64,000 nucleotides of DNA, taken from Achromobacter seleniivolatilans. Its GTDB lineage: Bacteria > Pseudomonadota > Gammaproteobacteria > Burkholderiales > Burkholderiaceae_B. Under the pieces are notes generated by a model, which searched no databases, had not been told where the DNA came from, and saw only the letters and a list, made by a program, of their open reading frames with translations. Position 1 is the first letter of the stretch. Each line of letters opens with the position of its first letter. Made by a program: the position numbers and the translations under genes. The stretch covers positions 434,001 through 498,000 of the forward strand of contig NZ_CP132976.1 in assembly GCF_030864005.1 (NCBI RefSeq), given 5' to 3'. This document shows positions 50,437-64,000 of this stretch, piece after piece.

Positions 50437-52146
50437 ATGGAAGTTGCTTTTAGCGGGCGGGGCATGGTCCTGGCAGCAGTCGTCTTCATGGCCTCGGCGG
50501 GAGCCGCATTTGCGCAGCCTTTACCTGATGGCGGGCGCGCCGCCGAGATTCAGCGCAGGCAGGAACAAGAAATTGATGCGCAGCGGCAACGGGCCGCCGA
50601 ACGTCCCGACGTGCTGACTCCCGAAGCCAAGTCAGGCACCCAAACCCTGCAATTGCCGGTCGAAACCCCGTGCTTTGTTATCAAACAACTCGTTTGGGAC
50701 GGCGCCCAGCCTCCCGCATTTATCGCGGAAGCCAGCGGTGCGGTGGTGGATCAATGTGTGGGCGCGCAAGGGTTGCGTGCACTACAGGAATATCTGACCG
50801 GTCAACTGATCGACAGCGGCAGGGTGACCGCCCGGTTGCTGGTTCCTGAGCAATCATTGGCTGCGGGCACACTGACGCTGCGTTATGTGCCGGGACGTAT
50901 TTCCGGGGTGAAAGGCGAAGACACCGTCGGCTGGTGGCGAACAGCGGTGCCCACAGGCGCGGGCGGCGAGTTGAACCAGCGCGATCTGGATCAGGCGTTG
51001 GAGAACATCCGCCGTCTGGCCGGTCAGTCAGACGCAGCAATCGACGTTGCACCCGGCCCCGAGCTGGGGGATTCTGACATCGTCATTCGCCCAGGCACCG
51101 GCAAACGCTGGCATGGGTATATCGGTGGCGACAACGGCGGCATGGAGTCCATCGGCAAATACCAGGTCAACGCCGGGCTGACGCTGGATTCCCCGTTGTT
51201 CCTGTACGACCAGCTATCCGTGTCCTGGAATAGCAATGCTCGCTGGCGGGATTCCACTTCCAACACGCGTGCGGCATCCATCAACTACAGCATTCCGTTT
51301 GGCTACTGGATGTTCTTTGCCGGCGCCAGCAAATCCACCTATCGGCAAACGGTGGCGGGTTTTGAAGACCCCATCGTGTACGGCGGCACCACCAAACAAG
51401 TGCAGGCGGGCGTGTCCGTCGTGCCCTATCGAGGTACTGCCTACAAGGGCAATGCGTCGTTCACGTTGCTGCGCAAGCGCACGGACAGCACGCTGAATGA
51501 TGTGCCCATCGATGTGCAGCGCCGCGATGTGACGGGCTACGAGTTCAGCTACAGCCATCGCCAATATCTGGGGCAGTCGGTGCTGGACGTGGGCGGCGGT
51601 GTGCGTGGCACCTTGCCGCATTATTCCGATCAGCCCGGTTACGTCTATGGCGACCCCGATTGGAATGGCCGCAGCACCATCTACACCGCCAACGTGGGTG
51701 TCTACGTGCCATTCAAGGTGTTGGAGCAGCCCTTTGCGTATCAGGGCAACTGGCAGATCCAGCACGCCAAGACTGCCGTCGTGCCGGCTGACTACTTCAC
51801 TATCGGCAACCGCTACGCGGTGCGTGGCTTTGATGGCCAGATGACGTTGGCCGCTGAAGATGGATGGTCCTTGCGCAACGATCTTTCGCTGAATCTGGAA
51901 CGCCTGACAGGCTTGCCCGGGCAGCAGCTCTACACCGGCGTCGATGTCGGCCGTGTAGGGGGTCCATCTGCCGCATTCCTCTCTGGACGCACGCTGGTTG
52001 GCGCCGTTGCCGGATTGCGTGGCCGCTTCTCCATCCCTTACGTCAACGCCAGCTATGACCTGTCAGCCGGCTGGCCCTTGAAAAAACCTGAATCTTTGAA
52101 GACCTCATCCACCGTGTTTGCCATGGTCGTGATGCTGGAGTTTTAA
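50437..52146 (+). CDS. cdiB: TpsB/CdiB-type outer-membrane transporter (two-partner secretion)
   Basis: This encodes 569 residues with a signal peptide (VLAAVVFMASAGAAFA-QPLPD). A helical linker with many Gln/Glu/Arg follows (residues about 28-60). Two POTRA-like domains lie between 70 and 220, the first with the paired Cys of ShlB-type POTRA (CFVIKQLVWDG and DQCVG). The rest is a beta-barrel with the diagnostic VRGF motif at residue 462 and a C-terminal MLEF ending in Phe. It secretes the TpsA protein encoded 163 bases downstream. The FhaC/ShlB/HecB/CdiB family is certain; the name cdiB depends on the partner. Confidence 0.92.
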   Translation: MEVAFSGRGMVLAAVVFMASAGAAFAQPLPDGGRAAEIQRRQEQEIDAQRQRAAERPDVLTPEAKSGTQTLQLPVETPCFVIKQLVWDGAQPPAFIAEASGAVVDQCVGAQGLRALQEYLTGQLIDSGRVTARLLVPEQSLAAGTLTLRYVPGRISGVKGEDTVGWWRTAVPTGAGGELNQRDLDQALENIRRLAGQSDAAIDVAPGPELGDSDIVIRPGTGKRWHGYIGGDNGGMESIGKYQVNAGLTLDSPLFLYDQLSVSWNSNARWRDSTSNTRAASINYSIPFGYWMFFAGASKSTYRQTVAGFEDPIVYGGTTKQVQAGVSVVPYRGTAYKGNASFTLLRKRTDSTLNDVPIDVQRRDVTGYEFSYSHRQYLGQSVLDVGGGVRGTLPHYSDQPGYVYGDPDWNGRSTIYTANVGVYVPFKVLEQPFAYQGNWQIQHAKTAVVPADYFTIGNRYAVRGFDGQMTLAAEDGWSLRNDLSLNLERLTGLPGQQLYTGVDVGRVGGPSAAFLSGRTLVGAVAGLRGRFSIPYVNASYDLSAGWPLKKPESLKTSSTVFAMVVMLEF

Positions 52147-52147
52147 C

Positions 52148-52265
52148 GGCCCGCGCCAGCGCCTTGCAGTGCTGGCGGGCCAGGTTGATCTCTCTACCCA
52201 TTCAGGCGTTTGCCTGAACGCTGTTGCTTCGCCTTAAGCGCTGTGGCCCGGACAAACACGTCCGG
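52148..52265 (+). other. Three hairpins in the tpsB-tpsA intergenic region
   Basis: Between the genes lie GGCCC-GC-GCCAGC/GCTGGC-GGGCC (52148-52181, 10-base loop), TTCAGGC/GCCTGAA (52201-52218, 4-base loop) and CCGGAC/GTCCGG (52248-52265, 6-base loop). No T-tract follows. They may set the ratio of transporter to exoprotein by attenuation or mRNA stability. Confidence 0.6.
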
Positions 52266-52309
52266 TTGATCCGCAGTCATTCCAGAAATTGAATTCGCAG
52301 GGTTGCACC

Positions 52310-55300
52310 ATGTTCAAGTTTCGTTCGTTGATCGTCTGGTCCATCGTATTCACGCAAATGTGGACGCCCGTGTTGGCGCAGACCTTGCCGATCTCGGTGG
52401 ATAAGAGCGTGGCGGGCGCAAAGCCTTCGGTGGGCGTGAGCAATGGCGTACCTGTGGTCAACATTGCGCCACCCTCGGCGGGCGGCGTATCCAACAATCG
52501 CTACACGCAATTCAACGTGGGCCCATCGGGTGTGGTGTTGAATAACAGCGGCGGGGCAAGTCAGTCGCAGCTAGCCGGACAAGTCGCCGGCAATGTCATG
52601 CTGGGTAACCAGCGCGCCACCACCATTCTCAATCAGGTCACAGCGCCGAATCCGTCGCAACTGCTGGGCACGCTGGAAGTCGCCGGCAACCGTGCGAACG
52701 TCATCGTGGCCAACCCGGCGGGTATTACCTGCAATGGCTGCGGTTTCTTGAATGCAGACCGCGCCACGTTGACGACGGGGCGGCCGCAGGTAGGTCCAGA
52801 CGGCGGCATTTCTCTGGACGTGGGCGCGGGCAAGATCCGCGTTGAGGGTGAAGGCCTGTATGGGGCCAACATCAGTCAGGTGGATCTGATCGCTCGGTCG
52901 CTCGAGATCAACGCGGGTGTCTGGGCGGACCGCCTGAACGTGGTGGCAGGCGCAGCGCAAGTGGACTACGCCAGCGGGGCCGCATCAGCGCAGGCGGGCG
53001 AGGGCGCGGCGCCGGCGGTGGCTTTGGATACGGCGGCCTTGGGCGGCATGTATGCCAACAGCATTCGGCTGATCGGCACGGAAGCCGGGGTGGGCGTGAA
53101 CGTCGGCGCAAACCTGGTGGCATTGACCGGTGATCTGCACGTCAGCGCAGCGGGAGACGTGCGCATCGCGCCCAGTGCCACCGTGCAGGCGGCGCGTGAT
53201 CTCAGCTTGGCGGCGGGGCGCGACTTGGCCGTGGACGGCGCCGCCCAGGCGTCTGGCGCCGTGGCGCTTGCAGCAGGCCGCAATGCGGACATAAAGGGCG
53301 CGGTGGGCGCCGGTGGCCCAGTAGATGTGAATGCGGCGGGCGATGTGACGGTTGCCGCACAGGGGGGATTGCAAACTCAGGGCGCGCTGCGTATTGCCGC
53401 GGGACAAGACTTGTCTTTGGCAGGGGCATTGGTCATGGGAGGCCAGGATGTGCGCGCGGATTCCGGCCGCCATATCCGCATCGGCGGCGCGACACCCACG
53501 ACGGGCACGAACCCTCCGGTGACGGGCGGCACGGGCACGGGATCTGTGGGAGGCGGAAACGCAACGCCAGGGAGCGGCGCAGGCGGCAATACGGGCGGCG
53601 GGGCAGGTACGCCCAGCGTGGCGCCCAGCGCATCTGCGGCAGGGGCCGAGTCGAGCGGACTCGTTACCGCAAAGGGCGCCATGGTGTTGAAGGCGGGGCG
53701 GGACATGGTGCTGCCCGGGCAGGTGACTGCTGCGGGCGCGCTGCACGCGCAAGCAGGCGGGGACTTGGTGGCAGGCGCCAGCGCGCAGCTGCAAGCTGGC
53801 GGCAATGCAGCGATACGCGCCAGCGCAGACTTGCGCGTGGCCGGCATGGTTGGCGCGCGGGGCGATGTCTCGCTGATGGCGGGGCGCGACGCCTGGATGT
53901 TGGGCAAAGGCGCAGCCACGGGCCGCGTTGCCATGGAAGCTGGCCGCGATCTAAGCGTTGAAGCACCAGCGCAATGGGACGCCGAGGGCGGCGCCTCCGC
54001 GAAAGCGGGCGCAAACATGACCATGGCCGGCACGCTGCGCGCCAATGGCGATATGGAGCTTGCAGCAACCAAGAATCTCGTTGTGGACGGCACGCTGGCG
54101 GCAGCATCCGGGGGGCTGAAGGCATTGGCTGGCGGCGATGTTGCGATTGGAGCGCAAGCGCAACTCGCAGCGGCGCAGCGCGTGGGCATTAATGCCGGGG
54201 GCGGGCTGCAAAGTTTTGGCAAAGTCACATCGCTGAAGGACCTGTCTTTGCAGGCGGCTGGCAACCTGACGCTGGCGGGCCAAACGCTTGCTACCGGCAA
54301 TTTGCAGTTGGCAGCAGGAGAGGCCCTGACCGCATCGTCCACCTCGCGCGCGCAGGCTGATGGCTCAATCGTGGCCGACGCAGCCAGCGCAGCGCTGGCC
54401 GGTCTTCTTATCGCCGGTCAGTCTGCTCAAGTGGGCACGCGGGGTGATCTGCGGGTGGATGGAACCGTGTTGGCCAACGCCGGCACGCTCACTGCGATCA
54501 GCGGCGGCGCCATGGCATTGGGCAGTGCGAGCGTGTTGCAGGCAGGACAGCAACTGAATGCGCAAGCCGGTGGCAATCTGCTTGCAGACGGCACGATCTC
54601 GGGTGAGAAGGACGTTCTTCTGACCGCAGGCGCCAACGCCGAATTGAACGGCAAGACGGTCGCCAACGGCTATCTGCGCGCTGACGCAGGCGCTGATCTA
54701 AGCATCGGTCAGGGCGGTTTGGCGCAGGGCAGTGGCAAGCTGCTTTTGGGCGCGGGCCAAGACCTGCGCATCGCCGGTACGGCTGGCACCGCCGAAACCG
54801 CGCGGGCCACGGGCGGGAACCTGCAAGCGCAAGCGGGCCGGGATTTATTCGTGACGGGCGTCGTCACCGCCAGCTCGCCAGCCAGCCTGTCCGCTACCCG
54901 CGATCTCAGCATCGACGGCATCGCGGCCGCGCTTGCAGGCAGCCTCTCGGCGGAGGCCGGGGGCCTGCTGCGCGTGGGCGCAACCGGCCGCATGCAGGCT
55001 TCTGAAAATCTGTCCGCAAAGGCGGGCACCCATTTGGACTCTGACGGCGTCATCGTGGCGGCCGGCGACCTCACACTGAATGCTTTGGGCGACGCACGTC
55101 TAGGCGGCACCGCCGCAGCATTAGGCGAGAAATCTGCCGGCGCGTTACTGGTGTCCGCCGGGCAGGACGTAATCATCAAGCAGGGCGGGCAAGTCCAGGC
55201 CGCAGGCACGCTGACCGCGCAAGCCATGCGCGACCTGAGCGCAGCAGGCGCCCTGACATCGGTAGAAGACATGGCGCTGACCGCCGCGCGCCAAGCGCGT

Positions 55301-58300
55301 GTGGACGGTACCGCGGCCAGCGATGCGCAACTGACGCTGGCGGCCCGCGACATCGCCGTGGGTGCGACGGGGCTGACACAAGCCGGTCAGACGTTGACGG
55401 CAACGGCAGATAAAACATTGCGCGCTGCGGGCCGCATGTTGGCAGGCGTGTCGCAAACACTCATCGCCGGAGACGGCATGACGGTGGACGGCACCGTTGC
55501 GGCTCTGCAAGGTGACCTGACGATGGACGTGCTGCGCGGCGATCTGAGCCTGGGCGCAACATCGGTCCAACAGGCGGGCGCCAACATGTCCGCTACCGCA
55601 AAGGGCGCATTGCAGGCCTTGGGTTCAGCAGCGGCCGGCCAAGGCATGACGCTGCGCGCGGGCACCGACGCCACGCTGGGCGGGGTGGCCGCCACGCAAG
55701 CGGGCGACCTGATCGCAAGCGCCGGCCGCAATCTGATGACGACCGCAAACGGCCAGGTTCAGTCTGGCGCGGCTCTGGACTTCCAGGCAAGCAACGCGCT
55801 GACGAACGCAGGCGTGCTGTCCGTGGCCGGTGCGGCCCGTCTAGCTGCGCAAGGCGCTCTTACCAACACGGGTTCGGTGCTGGCGGGCGGCAGTCTGAAC
55901 GTCACCGCTTCAGGTCAGTTGAACAACGCCGGCCGCTTTATCGCAGGCGTCGACGCGGACGGCAAACTCAGCCAAGCCGGCAGCCTGACGCTGAACGCAG
56001 GGTCCATCATGCATGCCGGCACCAGCCTGGCAGGCAAGGATCTGACATTCACCGCCAACGCCATGGACCTGACTGGCGGCAATTTGTCCGCCATCGGCAA
56101 CGCGCTGTTGACCTCTGCAGGAGACATCACCAGCCGTAACGCCGTCATGCACGGCGGCAACCTGGACATCACCGCCGCCAACCTGCGCAATCAAGGCGGC
56201 AAGCTGACTTCGGCCGGCGCCGCCACGCTGAAATTGGGCGGCGAGCTCGACAACACCGCAGGGCTGATTGCCGCCGCAGGCAATGTGCAGATCGAAGCCG
56301 CACAGTTGAATAACCGCAACGGCACGCTGGCAGGTGGCGATCAGACCATTACCGCCACAGGCAATCTCGATAATCGCGGCGGCCTGATCCAGGCCGACAA
56401 CACCCTGACCTTGAACGCCGCCAGCCTGGACAACAGCGCCACGTTGACCGCAGCCGGCGCGCCGGCCAAGGGCGTGCTGGGCAAAGTCGTTGCCATCGTG
56501 GCAGACCGGGTGAACAACCAAGGCGGATCAATCAGCGCGGGCCAAGACCTGACGTTGACCACACAGGTATTGGACAACACCGGCGGCGAAGTCGCCGCGC
56601 AAAATGCCGCCACGATCCAGGCAGACACCCTGAACAACACGCAGGGCAAGCTGCTGGCAGGCGAGCGCCTGAGCGTGGTGGTCCAGGCGCTGCAAGGCCT
56701 GGGCACGCTGCAATCGGTTGGCGATCTGATCTTTAACTACGCGGGCGCCTTGAACCAAAGCGGCAATATTGCCGCCGGACGCGACCTGACCATGACCGTC
56801 GGCGGCGCCATGGACAACAGCGCCAAGATCAGCGCCGGACGTGATCTGAACGTCACGGCAGCATCGCTGAACAATCAGGCCAACGGAGAACTGCTGGCCG
56901 GGCGCAACAACACGATCAACGTCACCAACGGCCTGACCAACTCCGGTTTGATCGATGGCGCTTCAACACGCATCACGGCAGGGCGAGTCGACAACTTCGG
57001 CCGCATCTACGGCGATGCCATTTCGATACGCACCGGAGAATTGATCAACGGTACGGGGGCGGGCGGCGGCGCGGTGATTGCGTCTCGCGGCGGCATGGAC
57101 TTGGGTATCACGTCGTTATTGAACCGCGATCATGCGCTGATCTATGCAGGCGCTGACCTGCGTATCGGCGGCGTATTGGATGCGAATGGCAAGGCGATTG
57201 GGCAGGCGGTATCGCTGGTCAACGCATCGGCGACGATCGAGGCCGCGGGCAATGCCAGTATTTCGGCGGCATCGATTCTGAACCAGAACAAGAGTTATGC
57301 CAGTGAAGTGGTGGAGGTGTCTTCCCAACGCAAGGTGTACTTCACGCCGGCGGGTAGCACAGACGTCTACGACGCGGCGACCAATTGGTTGTGCGACGAA
57401 GTTACGCCAGCATGCAGCAAGGAGCCTTCTTGGCTTGATGACGACCCGGAACGAATGTTCCTGTTGCCTTCCACCCAGTACCCGGCCGCGCAGTACGGCC
57501 CTCCTTTCGACTATGCGCCTTCCTACAAGGGGAAGGGGGGCGTAGACGCCCCTATCGCTCCAGCCCGAATTGCGAACTTGCGTGAGTGCCTGTCAAGCGG
57601 AGTTCAAATCGAAGGCTGCGTTGGCAGCACCCGATATGTCCAAGGAGACAGAATTTGGGCTGTCTTTGGCGTGCCGGCCCCGGAAGGAAATATTCCACCG
57701 ATGATCGAGGTGTGCCGGGGCGTGCAATGTGAAATGGTGTCTACTCCCGAACGTGATGCCGCGATAGCCCGCGATGAGTCGCGGCATGATCAGTTGGACT
57801 CGCGAATCCGTGCGTTCAATGCCGACTTCAATAGCCGGTTGGTCGGCACGTTTACCTACTACGACGTCCACGAAACCGTCACTGAGACTCGCACCCTATC
57901 GTCTGATCCAGGGAAGATCCTGTCGGGCGGCGCGATGGCATTGAGTGGCACCGTCACGAATGACAAAAGCCAGATTGCGGCGGGTGGGACATTGTCCGTC
58001 GCAGGCCCCGCGATCAACAACATCGGTGCAGGGGGCGAGCGGATCATCACACGCACAGGTACGGCTACCGTTACCCAAGCGCGTTCAAGTGACCGCAAGG
58101 AATTCTCCAGCCCGTATCAAGTCACCCTGGCTGGAGAATCCATCGAGCTACCGGTAGGCACATCCGGTGGAAACACCTCGGTCTCACTCAGTGGCGGTTC
58201 GCCCGGCGCCAGCGGTGGCCGCGCGCCCGGTCCGGTATTGATCGCCAGCATCGGCTTGCCAGGCGGCAACGTCGTCCGTACCGTATCCAACCCCGCCACC

Positions 58301-61300
58301 ATTCCAGACAGCCAGCTGTTCTCAGTCAACGGCGCACCGGATGCGCCGTACGTCGTGGCAACCGATCCGCGTTTCGTCGGCAACCGTCCAACCGTATCCA
58401 GCGACTACCTGTTCGACCTGCTGCGCCAGCCCGGTGCACCCGTCGGCAATGCAGGCGCCACAGGCGCCGTCAACGCCGGTCTGGGTAGCACGCCTGGCGG
58501 CCTGAACGCGCTGATACCCGCGGGCGCAAAGTTCCTCACGCCCTCCGGACAACCCAAGCGGCTGGGCGACGGCTTCTACGAACAGAAGCTTGTCTCCGAC
58601 CAAATCCTTGCCACCTCCGGCCAGCGCTATCTGGACGGCTTCAGCGACTACGACAGTCAATACAAGAGTCTGCTGGCGGCAGGCGCAAAATTCGCAATCG
58701 ACAATGGCATCAAACTCGGCGCGGCGCTGACCGACGCGCAGCAACGCCAGCTCACCACCGATCTGGTCTGGCTGGTTGAACAAACCATCACGCTGCCCGA
58801 CGGCACGACAGAAACAGTGCTGGTCCCGCAGGTCTACCTGCTGGTGCGCGATGGCGACTTGAAGGGCGACGGCACACTCATGGCCGGCCGCGACGTCAAA
58901 CTCGCCGCCGACGGTGACATCGTCAACAGCGGCACCATCGGCGCACGCGAAGCCACGGTCTTGACCGCCGCCAACATCGTCAACCAGGCGGGCGGCCTGA
59001 TCCAGGGCGCCGTCGTCAACCTTGCCGCGCGCGAAGACCTGACCAACTTGGTGTCGCTGATCAAGGGCGACAACGTCACCTTGGCAGCCGGACGCGACAT
59101 TGCCCTGACATCCACCTCGGCGTCAGAGAACAACGGCAGTACGTGGGGATCGTATGTAAGTGGTGTGTCTCGCGTGGACGCGGGCAGCCTCAGTATGCAG
59201 GCGGGTCGGGATTTGACGCTGACTGCGGCGCAAGTCACAGTCAAGGACGATGCGCGGTTGCAGGCGGGGCGTGATATTGCCCTGGGCACGCTGACTGAGA
59301 GCCACGGCGAGTCCTTGGTTCTGAACAGCAAGAACCGTCATGACCTTGCCACCAGCAACGAAGTTGGCACATTCATTGATGCCGGCGGCAACCTTATTTT
59401 GACAGCAGGGCAAGACATCAACGCGCGTGCTGCTGATGTGAGCGCAGGCAAGCAGTTGAAAGTTGTCGCTGGGCGGGACATCAACCTCACCGAAGGAGAG
59501 GCCTCTGCCTTTGCTCGTGATGAGGTGTATTTCAAGACTCGAGGTTTTTTCTCCAGCAAGAGCACGCACTCGATCGATTCAGAGGCGTGGACACGCGCGC
59601 AAGGATCGACGTTCAGTGGGGATGGAGTGGTATTCGATGCGGGTAGGGATGTTTCTCTTACCGCCTCACAAATCTTGGCCAGCAAAGACATTTTTCTGGA
59701 TGCAGGTCGCGATCTGCGGGTAGAAGCCGGAACCAACAGCTACGCTGAGAGCCACTACGAACGAGTCAAGAAAAGCGGCTTTTCGGTTGGAGGCGTGGGC
59801 ATTTCCTACAAAACCAGCGATGCCCAGTCGAAGCAGTCGGTAGATGGCGTCACGCAAAGCGACGCACGCAGCTTGATAGGTACTACAGGCGGCAACGTCA
59901 TCATTACGGCGGGTCAGAATGCGCTGATAGCAGGCAGCGACATTGTCGCTGGTAAGGCTGAGCACGACTCCGGCCGAAACTCGGGCAACATCGACATTCA
60001 GGCAGAAAACGTCGCCATCGTGTCAGGCCGTGATGTTGAAAGTACTCACAACGAGTACTCCCTCAAGCAGAGCGGATTCGGAGTGGCCTTGGTGGGGACA
60101 CCGGTGGACACCTTCAAGAATTTGTCCGCAGCGGGGGCCGCCAAGGCGAAGGCGCAGGAGCTTGCGCACAGCGGCGCCACTACTCCTGGCGTGACGTTCT
60201 CCGTGAGTAGCAGCAAGAGCAGCGGATCGTTTGACTCCTATAGCCAAGTGAGCAGCGGGTCGTCGCTGAGCGCCGCTGGCGACATTGTGATTCGCGCTAC
60301 CGGCAGCGGCGCGCGGGATGCTTCTGGCCGGGCACAAGATGGAGACCTGCTGGTCTCCGGATCCAGTCTGCGCGCTCAAGGCGGCGTGGTGTTAGATGCC
60401 AAGCGCAATATCGCCATCGTCGGATCCGACAATCGCCAAACTCAAACCAGTGCCGAATCGAGCAAGAGCACGAGTTTCTCATTCGGCAGTATGAGTCTGG
60501 GCGATATAGGTCGCGCCGTTGACGGCGGGCCGAACTCCGGAGGGGTCAAGATGTTCCCTTACGGCAGTGAGGTTGCGCAGTCGAAGGATCAGGCTCTAGG
60601 GACATGGCAAACATCTTCGCTAATTACCGGCAACAGCGTTTACCTGAGCAGCCGCGAAGGCGACATTCGTATTGCTGGGTCCGCTGTTGATGCCGTTAAC
60701 AATGTGACTATTGCCGCCAGCAATGGGGCGGTCGTCATAGATACTGGCAACGCCACCCGCGACCATAGCAGCAGCTACAGCAACAAATCGGTTGGAGACC
60801 TTGGCAAAGAAGGCAACGGATTCACCGTGGGCGTGCGTGGCAGCAGCGGCGGCCTGGATGAGCGTAGCAGCACGCCCAGTGCAGCTGGCAGCACGATAGT
60901 CAGTCGGCAAGGTGATGTCTCGATCATTGCAATGGAAGATGTCCTTATTCGAGGGAGTGACATCCGAGCCAACCGCGACATCTTGATTGGTGGCCAAACG
61001 GTCACGATCGACGGCAGCTTCGACACAAGTATCTATCGGCAATTCCAGGAAGTCAGCCAGGTTGGCGTGACGCTCAGCGCCAGCAATCCCGTCGTCAGCG
61101 CCGTGCAAAGCACCAATCGCATGCGCGAGGCGGCGCAGAACACCAACAACGGCCGCCTCCAGGCTATTGCTGCCGTTGCAGCAGGCCTGGCTGCCAAGAA
61201 TGCCTATGACGCTGTCGCCAAAGATCCATCCAAGGTGGGTGGTATCAACTTCAACGTGGATCTGGGTGCCAGCAGCTCCAGTCAAACCACCTCAGGCCAA

Positions 61301-63847
61301 AGCAGCAACGCAAACGGCACGGCCATCGCCGCTGGGCGGGATCTTACGATCATCGCAGCCGGCAAGGGAGACGAATCCGATATCGTCGTGTCCGGTTCGA
61401 ACTTGGCGGCGGGGCGCAACGTGCTGCTCGACGCCGAAGGTGACCTGCTGCTTACCGCGCAGCAGAACACCGCCAGCCAGAAGACAGATGGCAAGAGCAG
61501 CAATGCAAGCATCGGAGTGGGTTTCTCGATCGGTGGAACTCAGCAAGGTTTCAGCATCAATCTTGGAGCGGGCGGAAGCAAGAGCAAGAGCGACGGACAG
61601 GATTCGACGTGGAACAACACTCATGTCCAAGCCGGCAATGTAGTCACCATGAACTCTGGCGGCGACACAGTGCTGCGCGGCGCCCAGGTGAGCGCTGACC
61701 GGATCGTGGCGACCGTTGGCGGCAATCTCGTAGTGGAGAGCCTGCAAGATATCAGCAACTACGCCGCTCGCGATCGTAGCGTGGGTGTCCAGGTCAGCCT
61801 ATGCATTCCACCCATTTGCTACGGTGCAAGCTCAGTTAGCGGCAATTATGGCCAGACAAAAATCAACAGCCAATACGCCAGCGTCACCGAACAGACGGGG
61901 CTGTGGGCTGGTGACGGTGGCTTCCAATTGGACGTGGGCAAGAACACCGGTCTGATAGGCGGCGTCATCGCCAGCAGCGACAAGGCAGTCGCCGACGGCA
62001 AGAACGTGTTGATCACCGGCACGCTGACTAGCCGCGATGTGGAAAACCGCGCCAGCTATGAAGGCCAGTCGATTCAGTTGGGCGGAGGCATTAGCTTCGG
62101 CGGTGGCAAGGACGACGACAAGACCAAGAGCAACCTCGGCACGGATAGCAAGGGCGAGGTTGCAGGTGGCAGCAAGGCGACGCCGAACTCCAACCTGGCC
62201 ACCTTCAACGGCGTCGGCGCAAACGTTCCAGTCGTAATGGGCGCCAGTGGCGAATCCAGTTCCACCACGCTTAGCGGAATCAGCGGCGGCAAGATCGTCA
62301 TTCGTGATGAGGCAGGGCAGAAGGCCCTGACCGGGCAGACGGCTGCGGAAGTTATCGCAGCACTGAATCGCGACACGAAGGACACGTTAAATAGCCTGGA
62401 TCCCATCTTCGATGAGAAGGAGATACGAGCGGGATTTGAAATCGTCGCGGAAGTCAGCCGGCAAGCCGGGCAGTTTTTGACGAATCGGGCGGAGGAGGCG
62501 GATGCGCTGTCGAAGGAGCTGGTCAATGAATTGAAAAAGCCCGATGGCGGTGATACTGCTCGTATCACCGCGTTGGCCGACGAATTGAATGCCGCAATGA
62601 AGTGGGGGCCGGGAGGTGAGTACCGTTTGATCGTCAACGCGCTCATAGGCGGTGCGGCAGGCAACGTTACAGGAGGCGTATCGGGGTTTGTCCAAGCGAG
62701 CGCTGTCAATTATCTACAAGGCCTGACTGCTCAACAGATCAAGCTGTATTCAAACATGCTTGGCGAAGGTGTCGAGGCCCAGGCTGCTCGTGCGGCGCTA
62801 CACGCGGTGGTTGGATGTGCTGCGGGTGCCGCGCGTGGCGATGGCTGCGGCAGCTCTGCACTTGGCGCAGGTGCCGCCTCGGTGGTAAATGCGTTGCTCG
62901 ATGCCGCAACCGGTAAGTCTGGCTCAGCATTGTCATCTGAAGAAAAGGAAGCTCGTAGTAATTTGGTTTCAACCCTATTGGCTGGTGTGGCGGCAGGGTT
63001 GGGCGCAGATGCGAGCGCGGTGGTCAATAGCGGCAGGCTAGAGACTGAAAACAATGCAGTTGGGACCTTGCTTAAGCGCGGTGGCATGTTGGCACTGGGC
63101 GCGTGCTTCCGCTCGACAGCGTGCCAGGAAAAGGTGATTGGACCTGCGGCGTTCATCGCCCTGAGTGCCATGGTGGCCGAACTGACCGCCACGCACCCTG
63201 GGCTGTCCGCCGATCAAGCGCTACTGATTGCGACAACCCGGTACATCTCCTCTGTCGGTGTATCCGAAAGTTTGCCGGGGAAGTCCGCAGAACCCATGCC
63301 GCCGATTGGGGTGCCACCGGGCGACGGTGCGGAGGGGCTGCCGAATACACAACTACCCGGTCAATCTGGAGAAGTGCCGCAGCTTGGAGGTGTGCCAGGG
63401 CAGGGCAATAATGGTCCGGCGGGTGGGACGACTACTACTACGCCAATGCCCGACGAGCAAGGGCCGGAGTTGATATACAACGAAGACGGAGGCCAAACAG
63501 GTTCTGCGGGTGAGGCGGGGCGATTAATAGGGCAGAAACGCGAGGCCACAGTGGCGGTTATCGTCAATGGATCGGTCTCTGGCGAACAAGTTGTCGTACT
63601 CGGCCTGGGCTCGACAGATATCGATGTTGTCGCATCTAACGGGAACTTGGTCGCGGTAGGTGGGCCAGCAAAGGCCAACAATCTTGGGAAACTCGGTCAA
63701 GAACTTCGAATCTATAGAGCAATAGCTGAGCAACGAGGAGTTTTCGCCGAAGCGTACTTTGCCGACGGCACCCCGCAGTCAGTAATCAAGCTTGCCACGA
63801 AAATTCTCGGTGAAAATCATGTCAAAATTTTTAAAGGAGGCGAATGA
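52310..63847 (+). CDS. cdiA: TpsA/CdiA-type filamentous haemagglutinin with C-terminal toxin-like domain
   Basis: This encodes 3845 residues from the ATG at 52310; an in-frame TTG at 52289 gives 3852. The signal peptide ends PVLA. The TPS domain includes NPAGITCNGCGFLNADRATL near residue 135. Residues about 250-1690 are haemagglutinin repeats of the AGGDL-x5-G-x-L type, interrupted by a Gly/Thr/Pro-rich stretch (about 395-455). A Tyr/Pro- and Cys-containing non-repeat block lies at about 1665-1850. A second repeat array (FHA-2-like) runs about 2265-3270 and includes INSQYASVTEQTGLWAGDGG. A pretoxin-like region (about 3430-3650, DUF637-like) follows, then the junction ELIYN (3720) and a 126-residue end domain. 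Secretion by the upstream TpsB is expected. The CdiA call is inferred from this layout. Confidence 0.88.
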   Translation: MFKFRSLIVWSIVFTQMWTPVLAQTLPISVDKSVAGAKPSVGVSNGVPVVNIAPPSAGGVSNNRYTQFNVGPSGVVLNNSGGASQSQLAGQVAGNVMLGNQRATTILNQVTAPNPSQLLGTLEVAGNRANVIVANPAGITCNGCGFLNADRATLTTGRPQVGPDGGISLDVGAGKIRVEGEGLYGANISQVDLIARSLEINAGVWADRLNVVAGAAQVDYASGAASAQAGEGAAPAVALDTAALGGMYANSIRLIGTEAGVGVNVGANLVALTGDLHVSAAGDVRIAPSATVQAARDLSLAAGRDLAVDGAAQASGAVALAAGRNADIKGAVGAGGPVDVNAAGDVTVAAQGGLQTQGALRIAAGQDLSLAGALVMGGQDVRADSGRHIRIGGATPTTGTNPPVTGGTGTGSVGGGNATPGSGAGGNTGGGAGTPSVAPSASAAGAESSGLVTAKGAMVLKAGRDMVLPGQVTAAGALHAQAGGDLVAGASAQLQAGGNAAIRASADLRVAGMVGARGDVSLMAGRDAWMLGKGAATGRVAMEAGRDLSVEAPAQWDAEGGASAKAGANMTMAGTLRANGDMELAATKNLVVDGTLAAASGGLKALAGGDVAIGAQAQLAAAQRVGINAGGGLQSFGKVTSLKDLSLQAAGNLTLAGQTLATGNLQLAAGEALTASSTSRAQADGSIVADAASAALAGLLIAGQSAQVGTRGDLRVDGTVLANAGTLTAISGGAMALGSASVLQAGQQLNAQAGGNLLADGTISGEKDVLLTAGANAELNGKTVANGYLRADAGADLSIGQGGLAQGSGKLLLGAGQDLRIAGTAGTAETARATGGNLQAQAGRDLFVTGVVTASSPASLSATRDLSIDGIAAALAGSLSAEAGGLLRVGATGRMQASENLSAKAGTHLDSDGVIVAAGDLTLNALGDARLGGTAAALGEKSAGALLVSAGQDVIIKQGGQVQAAGTLTAQAMRDLSAAGALTSVEDMALTAARQARVDGTAASDAQLTLAARDIAVGATGLTQAGQTLTATADKTLRAAGRMLAGVSQTLIAGDGMTVDGTVAALQGDLTMDVLRGDLSLGATSVQQAGANMSATAKGALQALGSAAAGQGMTLRAGTDATLGGVAATQAGDLIASAGRNLMTTANGQVQSGAALDFQASNALTNAGVLSVAGAARLAAQGALTNTGSVLAGGSLNVTASGQLNNAGRFIAGVDADGKLSQAGSLTLNAGSIMHAGTSLAGKDLTFTANAMDLTGGNLSAIGNALLTSAGDITSRNAVMHGGNLDITAANLRNQGGKLTSAGAATLKLGGELDNTAGLIAAAGNVQIEAAQLNNRNGTLAGGDQTITATGNLDNRGGLIQADNTLTLNAASLDNSATLTAAGAPAKGVLGKVVAIVADRVNNQGGSISAGQDLTLTTQVLDNTGGEVAAQNAATIQADTLNNTQGKLLAGERLSVVVQALQGLGTLQSVGDLIFNYAGALNQSGNIAAGRDLTMTVGGAMDNSAKISAGRDLNVTAASLNNQANGELLAGRNNTINVTNGLTNSGLIDGASTRITAGRVDNFGRIYGDAISIRTGELINGTGAGGGAVIASRGGMDLGITSLLNRDHALIYAGADLRIGGVLDANGKAIGQAVSLVNASATIEAAGNASISAASILNQNKSYASEVVEVSSQRKVYFTPAGSTDVYDAATNWLCDEVTPACSKEPSWLDDDPERMFLLPSTQYPAAQYGPPFDYAPSYKGKGGVDAPIAPARIANLRECLSSGVQIEGCVGSTRYVQGDRIWAVFGVPAPEGNIPPMIEVCRGVQCEMVSTPERDAAIARDESRHDQLDSRIRAFNADFNSRLVGTFTYYDVHETVTETRTLSSDPGKILSGGAMALSGTVTNDKSQIAAGGTLSVAGPAINNIGAGGERIITRTGTATVTQARSSDRKEFSSPYQVTLAGESIELPVGTSGGNTSVSLSGGSPGASGGRAPGPVLIASIGLPGGNVVRTVSNPATIPDSQLFSVNGAPDAPYVVATDPRFVGNRPTVSSDYLFDLLRQPGAPVGNAGATGAVNAGLGSTPGGLNALIPAGAKFLTPSGQPKRLGDGFYEQKLVSDQILATSGQRYLDGFSDYDSQYKSLLAAGAKFAIDNGIKLGAALTDAQQRQLTTDLVWLVEQTITLPDGTTETVLVPQVYLLVRDGDLKGDGTLMAGRDVKLAADGDIVNSGTIGAREATVLTAANIVNQAGGLIQGAVVNLAAREDLTNLVSLIKGDNVTLAAGRDIALTSTSASENNGSTWGSYVSGVSRVDAGSLSMQAGRDLTLTAAQVTVKDDARLQAGRDIALGTLTESHGESLVLNSKNRHDLATSNEVGTFIDAGGNLILTAGQDINARAADVSAGKQLKVVAGRDINLTEGEASAFARDEVYFKTRGFFSSKSTHSIDSEAWTRAQGSTFSGDGVVFDAGRDVSLTASQILASKDIFLDAGRDLRVEAGTNSYAESHYERVKKSGFSVGGVGISYKTSDAQSKQSVDGVTQSDARSLIGTTGGNVIITAGQNALIAGSDIVAGKAEHDSGRNSGNIDIQAENVAIVSGRDVESTHNEYSLKQSGFGVALVGTPVDTFKNLSAAGAAKAKAQELAHSGATTPGVTFSVSSSKSSGSFDSYSQVSSGSSLSAAGDIVIRATGSGARDASGRAQDGDLLVSGSSLRAQGGVVLDAKRNIAIVGSDNRQTQTSAESSKSTSFSFGSMSLGDIGRAVDGGPNSGGVKMFPYGSEVAQSKDQALGTWQTSSLITGNSVYLSSREGDIRIAGSAVDAVNNVTIAASNGAVVIDTGNATRDHSSSYSNKSVGDLGKEGNGFTVGVRGSSGGLDERSSTPSAAGSTIVSRQGDVSIIAMEDVLIRGSDIRANRDILIGGQTVTIDGSFDTSIYRQFQEVSQVGVTLSASNPVVSAVQSTNRMREAAQNTNNGRLQAIAAVAAGLAAKNAYDAVAKDPSKVGGINFNVDLGASSSSQTTSGQSSNANGTAIAAGRDLTIIAAGKGDESDIVVSGSNLAAGRNVLLDAEGDLLLTAQQNTASQKTDGKSSNASIGVGFSIGGTQQGFSINLGAGGSKSKSDGQDSTWNNTHVQAGNVVTMNSGGDTVLRGAQVSADRIVATVGGNLVVESLQDISNYAARDRSVGVQVSLCIPPICYGASSVSGNYGQTKINSQYASVTEQTGLWAGDGGFQLDVGKNTGLIGGVIASSDKAVADGKNVLITGTLTSRDVENRASYEGQSIQLGGGISFGGGKDDDKTKSNLGTDSKGEVAGGSKATPNSNLATFNGVGANVPVVMGASGESSSTTLSGISGGKIVIRDEAGQKALTGQTAAEVIAALNRDTKDTLNSLDPIFDEKEIRAGFEIVAEVSRQAGQFLTNRAEEADALSKELVNELKKPDGGDTARITALADELNAAMKWGPGGEYRLIVNALIGGAAGNVTGGVSGFVQASAVNYLQGLTAQQIKLYSNMLGEGVEAQAARAALHAVVGCAAGAARGDGCGSSALGAGAASVVNALLDAATGKSGSALSSEEKEARSNLVSTLLAGVAAGLGADASAVVNSGRLETENNAVGTLLKRGGMLALGACFRSTACQEKVIGPAAFIALSAMVAELTATHPGLSADQALLIATTRYISSVGVSESLPGKSAEPMPPIGVPPGDGAEGLPNTQLPGQSGEVPQLGGVPGQGNNGPAGGTTTTTPMPDEQGPELIYNEDGGQTGSAGEAGRLIGQKREATVAVIVNGSVSGEQVVVLGLGSTDIDVVASNGNLVAVGGPAKANNLGKLGQELRIYRAIAEQRGVFAEAYFADGTPQSVIKLATKILGENHVKIFKGGE
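57290..57880 (+). other. Non-repeat block, candidate receptor-binding region of the TpsA/CdiA protein
   Basis: Residues about 1661-1857 lack the haemagglutinin repeat. They contain three close cysteine pairs (CDEVTPAC, CLSSGVQIEGC, CRGVQC) and a Tyr/Pro-rich part (LLPSTQYPAAQYGPPFDYAP). In E. coli CdiA the receptor-binding domain and a Tyr/Pro-rich domain sit between two haemagglutinin-repeat arrays, as here. Function by position only. Confidence 0.5.
63467..63847 (+). other. Putative C-terminal toxin domain (CdiA-CT-like)
   Basis: Residues 3720-3845, after a Pro/Gly/Thr-rich linker (PAGGTTTTTPMPDEQGP). The junction ELIYN resembles the E/Q-L-Y-N motif that precedes variable toxins in Burkholderia-type CdiA. 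The core is STDIDVVASNGNLVAVGGP, AKANNLGKLGQELRIYRAIA, RGVFAEAYFADGTPQSVIKL and a final LGENHVKIF. The acidic pair in DID and the conserved-looking GGPAK and Y-F-x-x-G-T-P suggest a nuclease, perhaps a tRNase. This is a guess from layout. Confidence 0.55.
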
Positions 63848-64000
63848 TGGCTTGCCCAGTATTAAAGGTTCTCATTCCAGAGGTGCTGGAAAAAGCATTT
63901 TCCATTGTCGTCGGGCTATTCGAGGAGTGCGGTTTGACCGTTGAAAATCCCGGTAACTCCAGGATTACAACGTGGAGCAATTCTGGAGATCAGGAAGAAG
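63847..64000 (+). CDS. Putative immunity protein (CdiI-like), partial at window end
   Basis: The ATG at 63847 has AAAGGAGG six bases upstream; the ATG at 63844 also fits and overlaps the cdiA stop. Fifty-one codons are visible, starting MACPVLKVLIPEVLEKAFSI, then VVGLFEECGLTVENPGNSRI and TTWSNSGDQEE, before the window ends. There is no signal peptide. Its position directly after the toxin-like domain and its strong ribosome binding site are as expected for a cognate cytosolic immunity gene. No family was recognised, and the base composition is AT-richer than the locus average. Confidence 0.6.
   Translation, partial: MACPVLKVLIPEVLEKAFSIVVGLFEECGLTVENPGNSRITTWSNSGDQEE

Follow-up and report, generated by a model that had tools for sequence, protein, structure and literature searches.

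The right-hand end of the window, the stretch of 64,000 nucleotides of Achromobacter seleniivolatilans DNA analysed here (G000:C1:434001-498000, from a genome of 6.86 Mb in two contigs), raises the question of what the tip of a very large exoprotein does, and which protein would neutralise it. An initial annotation had described a TpsB transporter gene, a TpsA exoprotein gene of 3845 codons and an overlapping small gene with its own ribosome-binding site, with coordinates and a codon count that are right. It had also proposed a contact-dependent inhibition (CDI) system, ending in a toxin domain of a family that might not yet have been studied. The locus is of the CDI type, in the B-A-I order (cdiB-cdiA-cdiI), with the domains, variable ends and co-varying next genes of such systems. 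We consider it highly probable that the tip of CdiA has a PD-(D/E)XK fold, is most likely a nuclease, and is paired with a dedicated immunity protein. The system is a known one, while the toxin-immunity pair is new to the libraries searched.

The locus and its variable end

The TpsA frame, with its 3.8 thousand codons and strong domain scores (Table 1), is not a chance open reading frame; an alternative start, a TTG at 52289, would give a frame of 3852 codons (52289-63847). The small gene has its ATG at 63844, in a four-base overlap (ATGA) with the TpsA stop, and a second ATG at 63847. When the sequence was extended to the right, as the initial annotation had suggested, the whole gene was recovered from the genome sequence: it ends at 64251, 251 bases past the window end, so that only its first part is inside the window. 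Like the E. coli-type cdiBAI loci, this locus combines a TpsB, a giant TpsA with a TPS domain and filamentous hemagglutinin (FHA) repeats, a variable end and an overlapping immunity gene, with remnants of older cassettes downstream. The window's host probably belongs to the beta-proteobacteria; Burkholderia loci are named bcpAIOB (excerpts of PMC9487645).

In a comparison set of 43 genomes of the genus, a TpsB relative is present in 41, the window's own genome included, some of these relatives being only distant, and the conserved CdiA body preceding the end is present in 33. From 64 body matches, 30 CdiA loci were compared, each from a different genome, which covers 30 of the 33 in which the body is present. 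The last 105 residues and the next genes (the longest frame starting between 40 bases before and 150 after the CdiA stop) were clustered separately by BLAST. The carboxy-terminus varies between these relatives while the body is conserved: there are 24 end clusters and 24 next-gene clusters, with identical membership. All ten pairs of loci with the same end share a next-gene cluster, and all ten pairs with the same next gene share an end cluster; the opposite pattern raised by the initial annotation, an end that stays constant while the next gene differs, was not found.

The toxin end of the window occurs in three of the 43 genomes: its own, G031 and G007. In G031, a diverged version (53% identical to that of the window) is carried by a body that is 69% identical, while in G007 a decayed fragment of 24 residues adjoins a likewise decayed remnant of the immunity gene seen in the window. 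The initial annotation had allowed for a small gene conserved among relatives and unrelated to toxins, which is not what was observed: direct search found the gene in two of the 43 genomes, as the window's copy and the G007 fragment, and in G031 the gene after the related toxin is a more distant relative. The entry-like and linker stretch preceding the toxin is 53-65% identical in the five closest genus loci, four of which carry unrelated toxins (17-23% identity in forced alignment), the fifth being G031.

Remnants of displaced cassettes lie downstream (L008 14936-15847, equivalent to window positions 64936-65847, outside the window). By tblastn, these comprise a terminal stretch of 48-50 residues from another toxin, interrupted by a stop (L008 14936-15085; best E 5e-16), then the pentapeptide-repeat immunity gene of that toxin, in pieces and with a stop (L008 15132-15535; E 3e-27), and further on a 24-residue fragment from a third type of toxin (L008 15776-15847; E 4e-6). 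Insertion of new cassettes behind cdiA and ahead of older ones would be expected to leave such remnants. The first displaced pair is intact as the current cassette in three genus loci (L032, L038 and L055); its toxin is ParB-like by eye, and the one version scanned had no Pfam match. Between the immunity gene and the remnants there is an open frame of 124 amino acids (L008 14559-14933), with no Pfam or NCBIfam match.

The toxin family and its immunity partner

A search of 5.8 billion proteins yielded 17 with the toxin end, the window's own included, the closest named one being from Achromobacter spanius. A second protein search gave five, of which four were new, and scanning 84,980 genomes with a pattern returned 51 matches, of which 16 were confirmed as toxin loci. 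These come from Burkholderiales, Komagataeibacter, Asaia, Sorangium and Minicystis, and from Acidobacteria and Thermoanaerobaculia bins. The family is sparse, samples of 369 genomes of the class and 398 of the phylum having matched the window's own genome only. The domain is carried by both CdiA-type and Rhs-type proteins, the latter recognised with Pfam (P0026, P0027), by name (P0018) or by eye (L018, L021, L024, L025). The toxin frames of L014, L017 and L025 are shortened or interrupted. In Sorangium cellulosum So0157-2 (L018 2-4897), a single open frame encodes both the toxin and its different partner, owing either to a natural fusion or to an error in sequencing, whereas L025 has the two separate.

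No member of the toxin family has a credible Pfam or NCBIfam family (Pfam matches have E-values of 0.036 or worse), and neither the toxin domain nor its partner has a convincing match to Pfam, NCBIfam or a solved structure in the PDB. CDI ends are commonly missing from Pfam, which makes such an absence unremarkable on its own: of five other genus ends checked, one matched CdiA_C (PF18451) and four matched nothing above the cut-off. The pair forms a compact family, found in distant groups and unnamed in the libraries searched, and some proteins now labelled hemagglutinin or RHS repeat could be annotated as toxins.

Among the 18 toxin loci whose next gene was inspected (the window, L010-L025 and G031), 16 encode in that place a protein related to the window's small one. 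An immunity profile was trained on 11 members, 32-73% identical to the window's protein where they are not that protein itself (the others are four database proteins, L010-L014 and L017). With E-values computed for a set of 49 sequences, it found nine of ten held-out next genes (E 8e-18 to 4.4e-5, 56 to 15 bits), the best of 28 control next genes scoring E 0.056 and 5.2 bits. The immunity proteins are more divergent than the toxins (mean distance 0.77 versus 0.46), and the two distance matrices are correlated (Mantel r 0.85, reached in 0 of 9999 permutations, 15 pairs).

Predicted fold and active site of the toxin domain

Structure prediction, proposed in the initial annotation for both proteins, gave confident AlphaFold2 models, with a pLDDT of 91.0 (pTM 0.82) for the toxin domain and of 94.3 for the immunity protein. 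When the toxin model was submitted to the structural aligner VIA, the top rows were largely PD-(D/E)XK nucleases, including the CDI toxins TA271 and YPIII (PDB entries 4g6u and 4zqu). The family has an invariant Glu, Asp and Lys wherever these positions are aligned (Table 1), which are Glu3745, Asp3772 and Lys3788 when numbered from the ATG start. The (D/E)-x-K signature, which is often varied within the PD-(D/E)XK superfamily, is absent, with GGPxK instead in 17 of 17 rows. The ends of two other genus loci, L030 and L044, carry EIKTG and LEVKN respectively, resembling ExK motifs of the canonical form; for the L030 end, no Pfam match exceeded the cut-off.

The active site of TA271 consists of Glu177, Asp198, Ser209 and Lys211 (excerpts of PMC9086364, a 2022 review). 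The first aligned residues have one and the same offset, model residue 9 with residue 166 of 4g6u and model residue 17 with residue 174 of 4zqu, which places Glu20 of the model on Glu177 of TA271, provided that helix 1 contains no gap and, in the case of 4zqu, that the numbering follows TA271. TA271 and YPIII differ from the window toxin, which has GGPxK, and lack a sequence match to it; the window immunity protein has no sequence match to their counterparts either. The same excerpts list four PD-(D/E)XK CDI toxins, two of which cut tRNA and two DNA. The tRNases Bp1026b and E479 share with the window toxin the superfamily fold, here predicted, and delivery by CdiA, which the locus implies for the window, but again no sequence match. 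The Tox-REase clades are alike in their restriction endonuclease (REase) fold, predicted in our case, and in forming toxin tips on type V secretion system (T5SS) and RHS vehicles. However, Tox-REase-1 to -10 are all reported to conform closely to a D-[EQ]xK signature (excerpts of PMC3482391), from which the predicted active site of the window family departs. With no sequence fit to the four listed toxins or to these clades, the locus represents an established type of system whose toxin-immunity pair is new to the libraries searched. The suggestion of a toxin family not yet studied holds for Pfam, NCBIfam, the PDB and the parts of the literature surveyed, but not for the fold, as the predicted PD-(D/E)XK fold is a known toxin fold.

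Judged from the model, the toxin is most likely a nuclease and an undescribed clade of PD-(D/E)XK-fold CDI toxins, probably with a variant active site; DNA and tRNA are both plausible substrates. CdiB would export CdiA and, upon contact with a neighbour, the carboxy-terminal piece beyond ETENN would be released, comprising an entry segment followed by the toxin domain of about 113 residues. In the recipient, this domain would most likely cut DNA or RNA using Glu3745, Asp3772 and Lys3788, the Lys being supplied by GGPxK in place of the usual (D/E/Q)xK. The overlapping gene would supply the producing cell and its siblings with a dedicated immunity protein that binds the toxin. To a broader proposal we give an even chance: that this is a separate REase-fold clade of interbacterial nucleases, with the catalytic Lys in a GGPxK motif located where strand 3 is followed by the turn into a short helix, and a metal site formed by the helix-1 Glu and the strand-2 Asp without the (D/E)xK acid. 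It would be borne by CdiA and Rhs toxins of beta- and alpha-proteobacteria, Myxococcota and Acidobacteriota, and in most cases be accompanied by a single cognate immunity family, itself new.

Several results weigh against a PD-(D/E)XK nuclease with a dedicated partner. All VIA Z-scores are below 8, a range in which the tool warns of common arrangements. Foldseek gave no match at E 0.001 (best 0.016), and PD-(D/E)XK proteins were recognised in four of the 50 matches listed, the others including KRas and FAD synthetase chains. Profile-profile comparison with Mrr_cat by hhalign was not significant and did no better than the controls (probability 0.27%, score 12.05 versus 11.67 and 10.11 for controls). 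The toxin lacks the acid of the (D/E)xK motif, so that activity is not assured. A strict VENN was not found, the E. coli-type motif being replaced by ETENN, and CdiA contains no pretoxin domain detectable with Pfam (PT-VENN and DUF637 had no match at E 1); a VENN motif or pretoxin domain marking the carboxy-terminal part (CdiA-CT) is common, but not universal. In two of the 18 loci, L018 and L025, both from Sorangium, the partner is not detectably related: that of L025 is the sole held-out next gene missed by the immunity profile, and that of L018, which was not scored, resembles it by eye. Common ancestry of the cassettes could by itself be enough to produce the Mantel correlation.

Alternatively, the CDI toxin might have kept a PD-(D/E)XK-like fold without being a nuclease, its chemistry having been lost or changed to give a domain with another target or a binding or inhibitory one. 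This is unlikely, because the usual catalytic set of Glu, Asp and Lys is invariant where aligned, Glu20 falls on an active-site residue of TA271 given an ungapped helix 1, and variant sites are active in E479, which has a His for the Lys, and in TA271, which has Ser209 where Bp1026b has Asp223 (excerpts of PMC9086364). Cassette decay, seen downstream and in G007, could have left the window with an inactive copy, but this is very improbable, since the toxin and immunity frames are both intact, the Shine-Dalgarno sequence and overlap are present and the family-invariant positions are retained. Least probable is an FHA-like adhesin without a toxic tip, followed by an unrelated small gene: FHA-type repeats and a TPS domain occur in adhesins too, and the window TpsA has both, but its end and next gene co-vary over the 30 loci, displaced cassettes lie downstream, and the Rhs-like L021 and L024 have the same end with a relative of the same partner. 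Read as a PD-(D/E)XK nuclease and its immunity protein, the small and confidently modelled pair offers a way to ask how far such a site can drift and still cut.

Feature coordinates and further TpsA frames

Table 1. Features of the CDI locus, in window positions
Feature	Position	Strand	Evidence
cdiB-like TpsB outer-membrane transporter gene, 569 amino acids	50437..52146	+	ShlB PF03865 E 4.3e-80, POTRA_2 E 1.2e-8, POTRA_3 E 1.3e-6
cdiA-like TpsA exoprotein gene, 3845 codons from ATG	52310..63847	+	Open reading frame, PF05860, PF13332, PF05594, TIGR01901, TIGR01731
TPS secretion domain, residues 51-293 of the 3852-residue frame	52439..53167	+	PF05860 E 3.7e-53
Best FHA-type hemagglutinin repeat stretch, residues 2992-3161	61262..61771	+	PF13332 (Fil_haemagg_2), whole-protein E 1.5e-58, 8 stretches
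ETENN motif, VENN variant, at start of variable CdiA-CT	63041..63055	+	Sequence; 21 of 30 genus loci, own included, have ETENN at this point
Entry-like stretch and Gly/Pro/Thr-rich linker	63056..63478	+	Common to loci with other toxins; putative entry role
Toxin domain, about 113 amino acids, predicted PD-(D/E)XK fold	63506..63844	+	Homologues, AlphaFold2 model, fold matches
Glu, model residue 20, helix 1, putative active-site residue	63542..63544	+	16 of 16 rows reaching that position
Asp in TDIDV, model residue 47, putative catalytic residue	63623..63625	+	17 of 17 rows
GGPAK motif, invariant Lys being model residue 63, in place of expected (D/E/Q)xK	63659..63673	+	Both G residues, P and K in every one of the 17 rows
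AAAGGAGG, ribosome-binding site of immunity gene, within cdiA 3' end	63833..63840	+	Sequence
cdiI-like immunity gene, 135 amino acids	63844..64000, on to 64251 beyond window	+	Open reading frame, AlphaFold2 model, relatives in same place at other loci

Downstream of the locus, two adjacent reverse-strand frames (L008 17555-18642) resemble an IS3-type transposase pair by eye. The genome contains a second TpsA frame of 3478 codons (L092, G000:C1:2019500-2038500), overlapping a next frame of 180 codons. The adjoining TpsB matches are fragmented, one containing a stop, so that L092 may be without a functional transporter. Another TpsA-like open frame, the third, has 2648 codons (L093, G000:C1:5071000-5090500), and the nearest listed following frame starts about 519 bases on.
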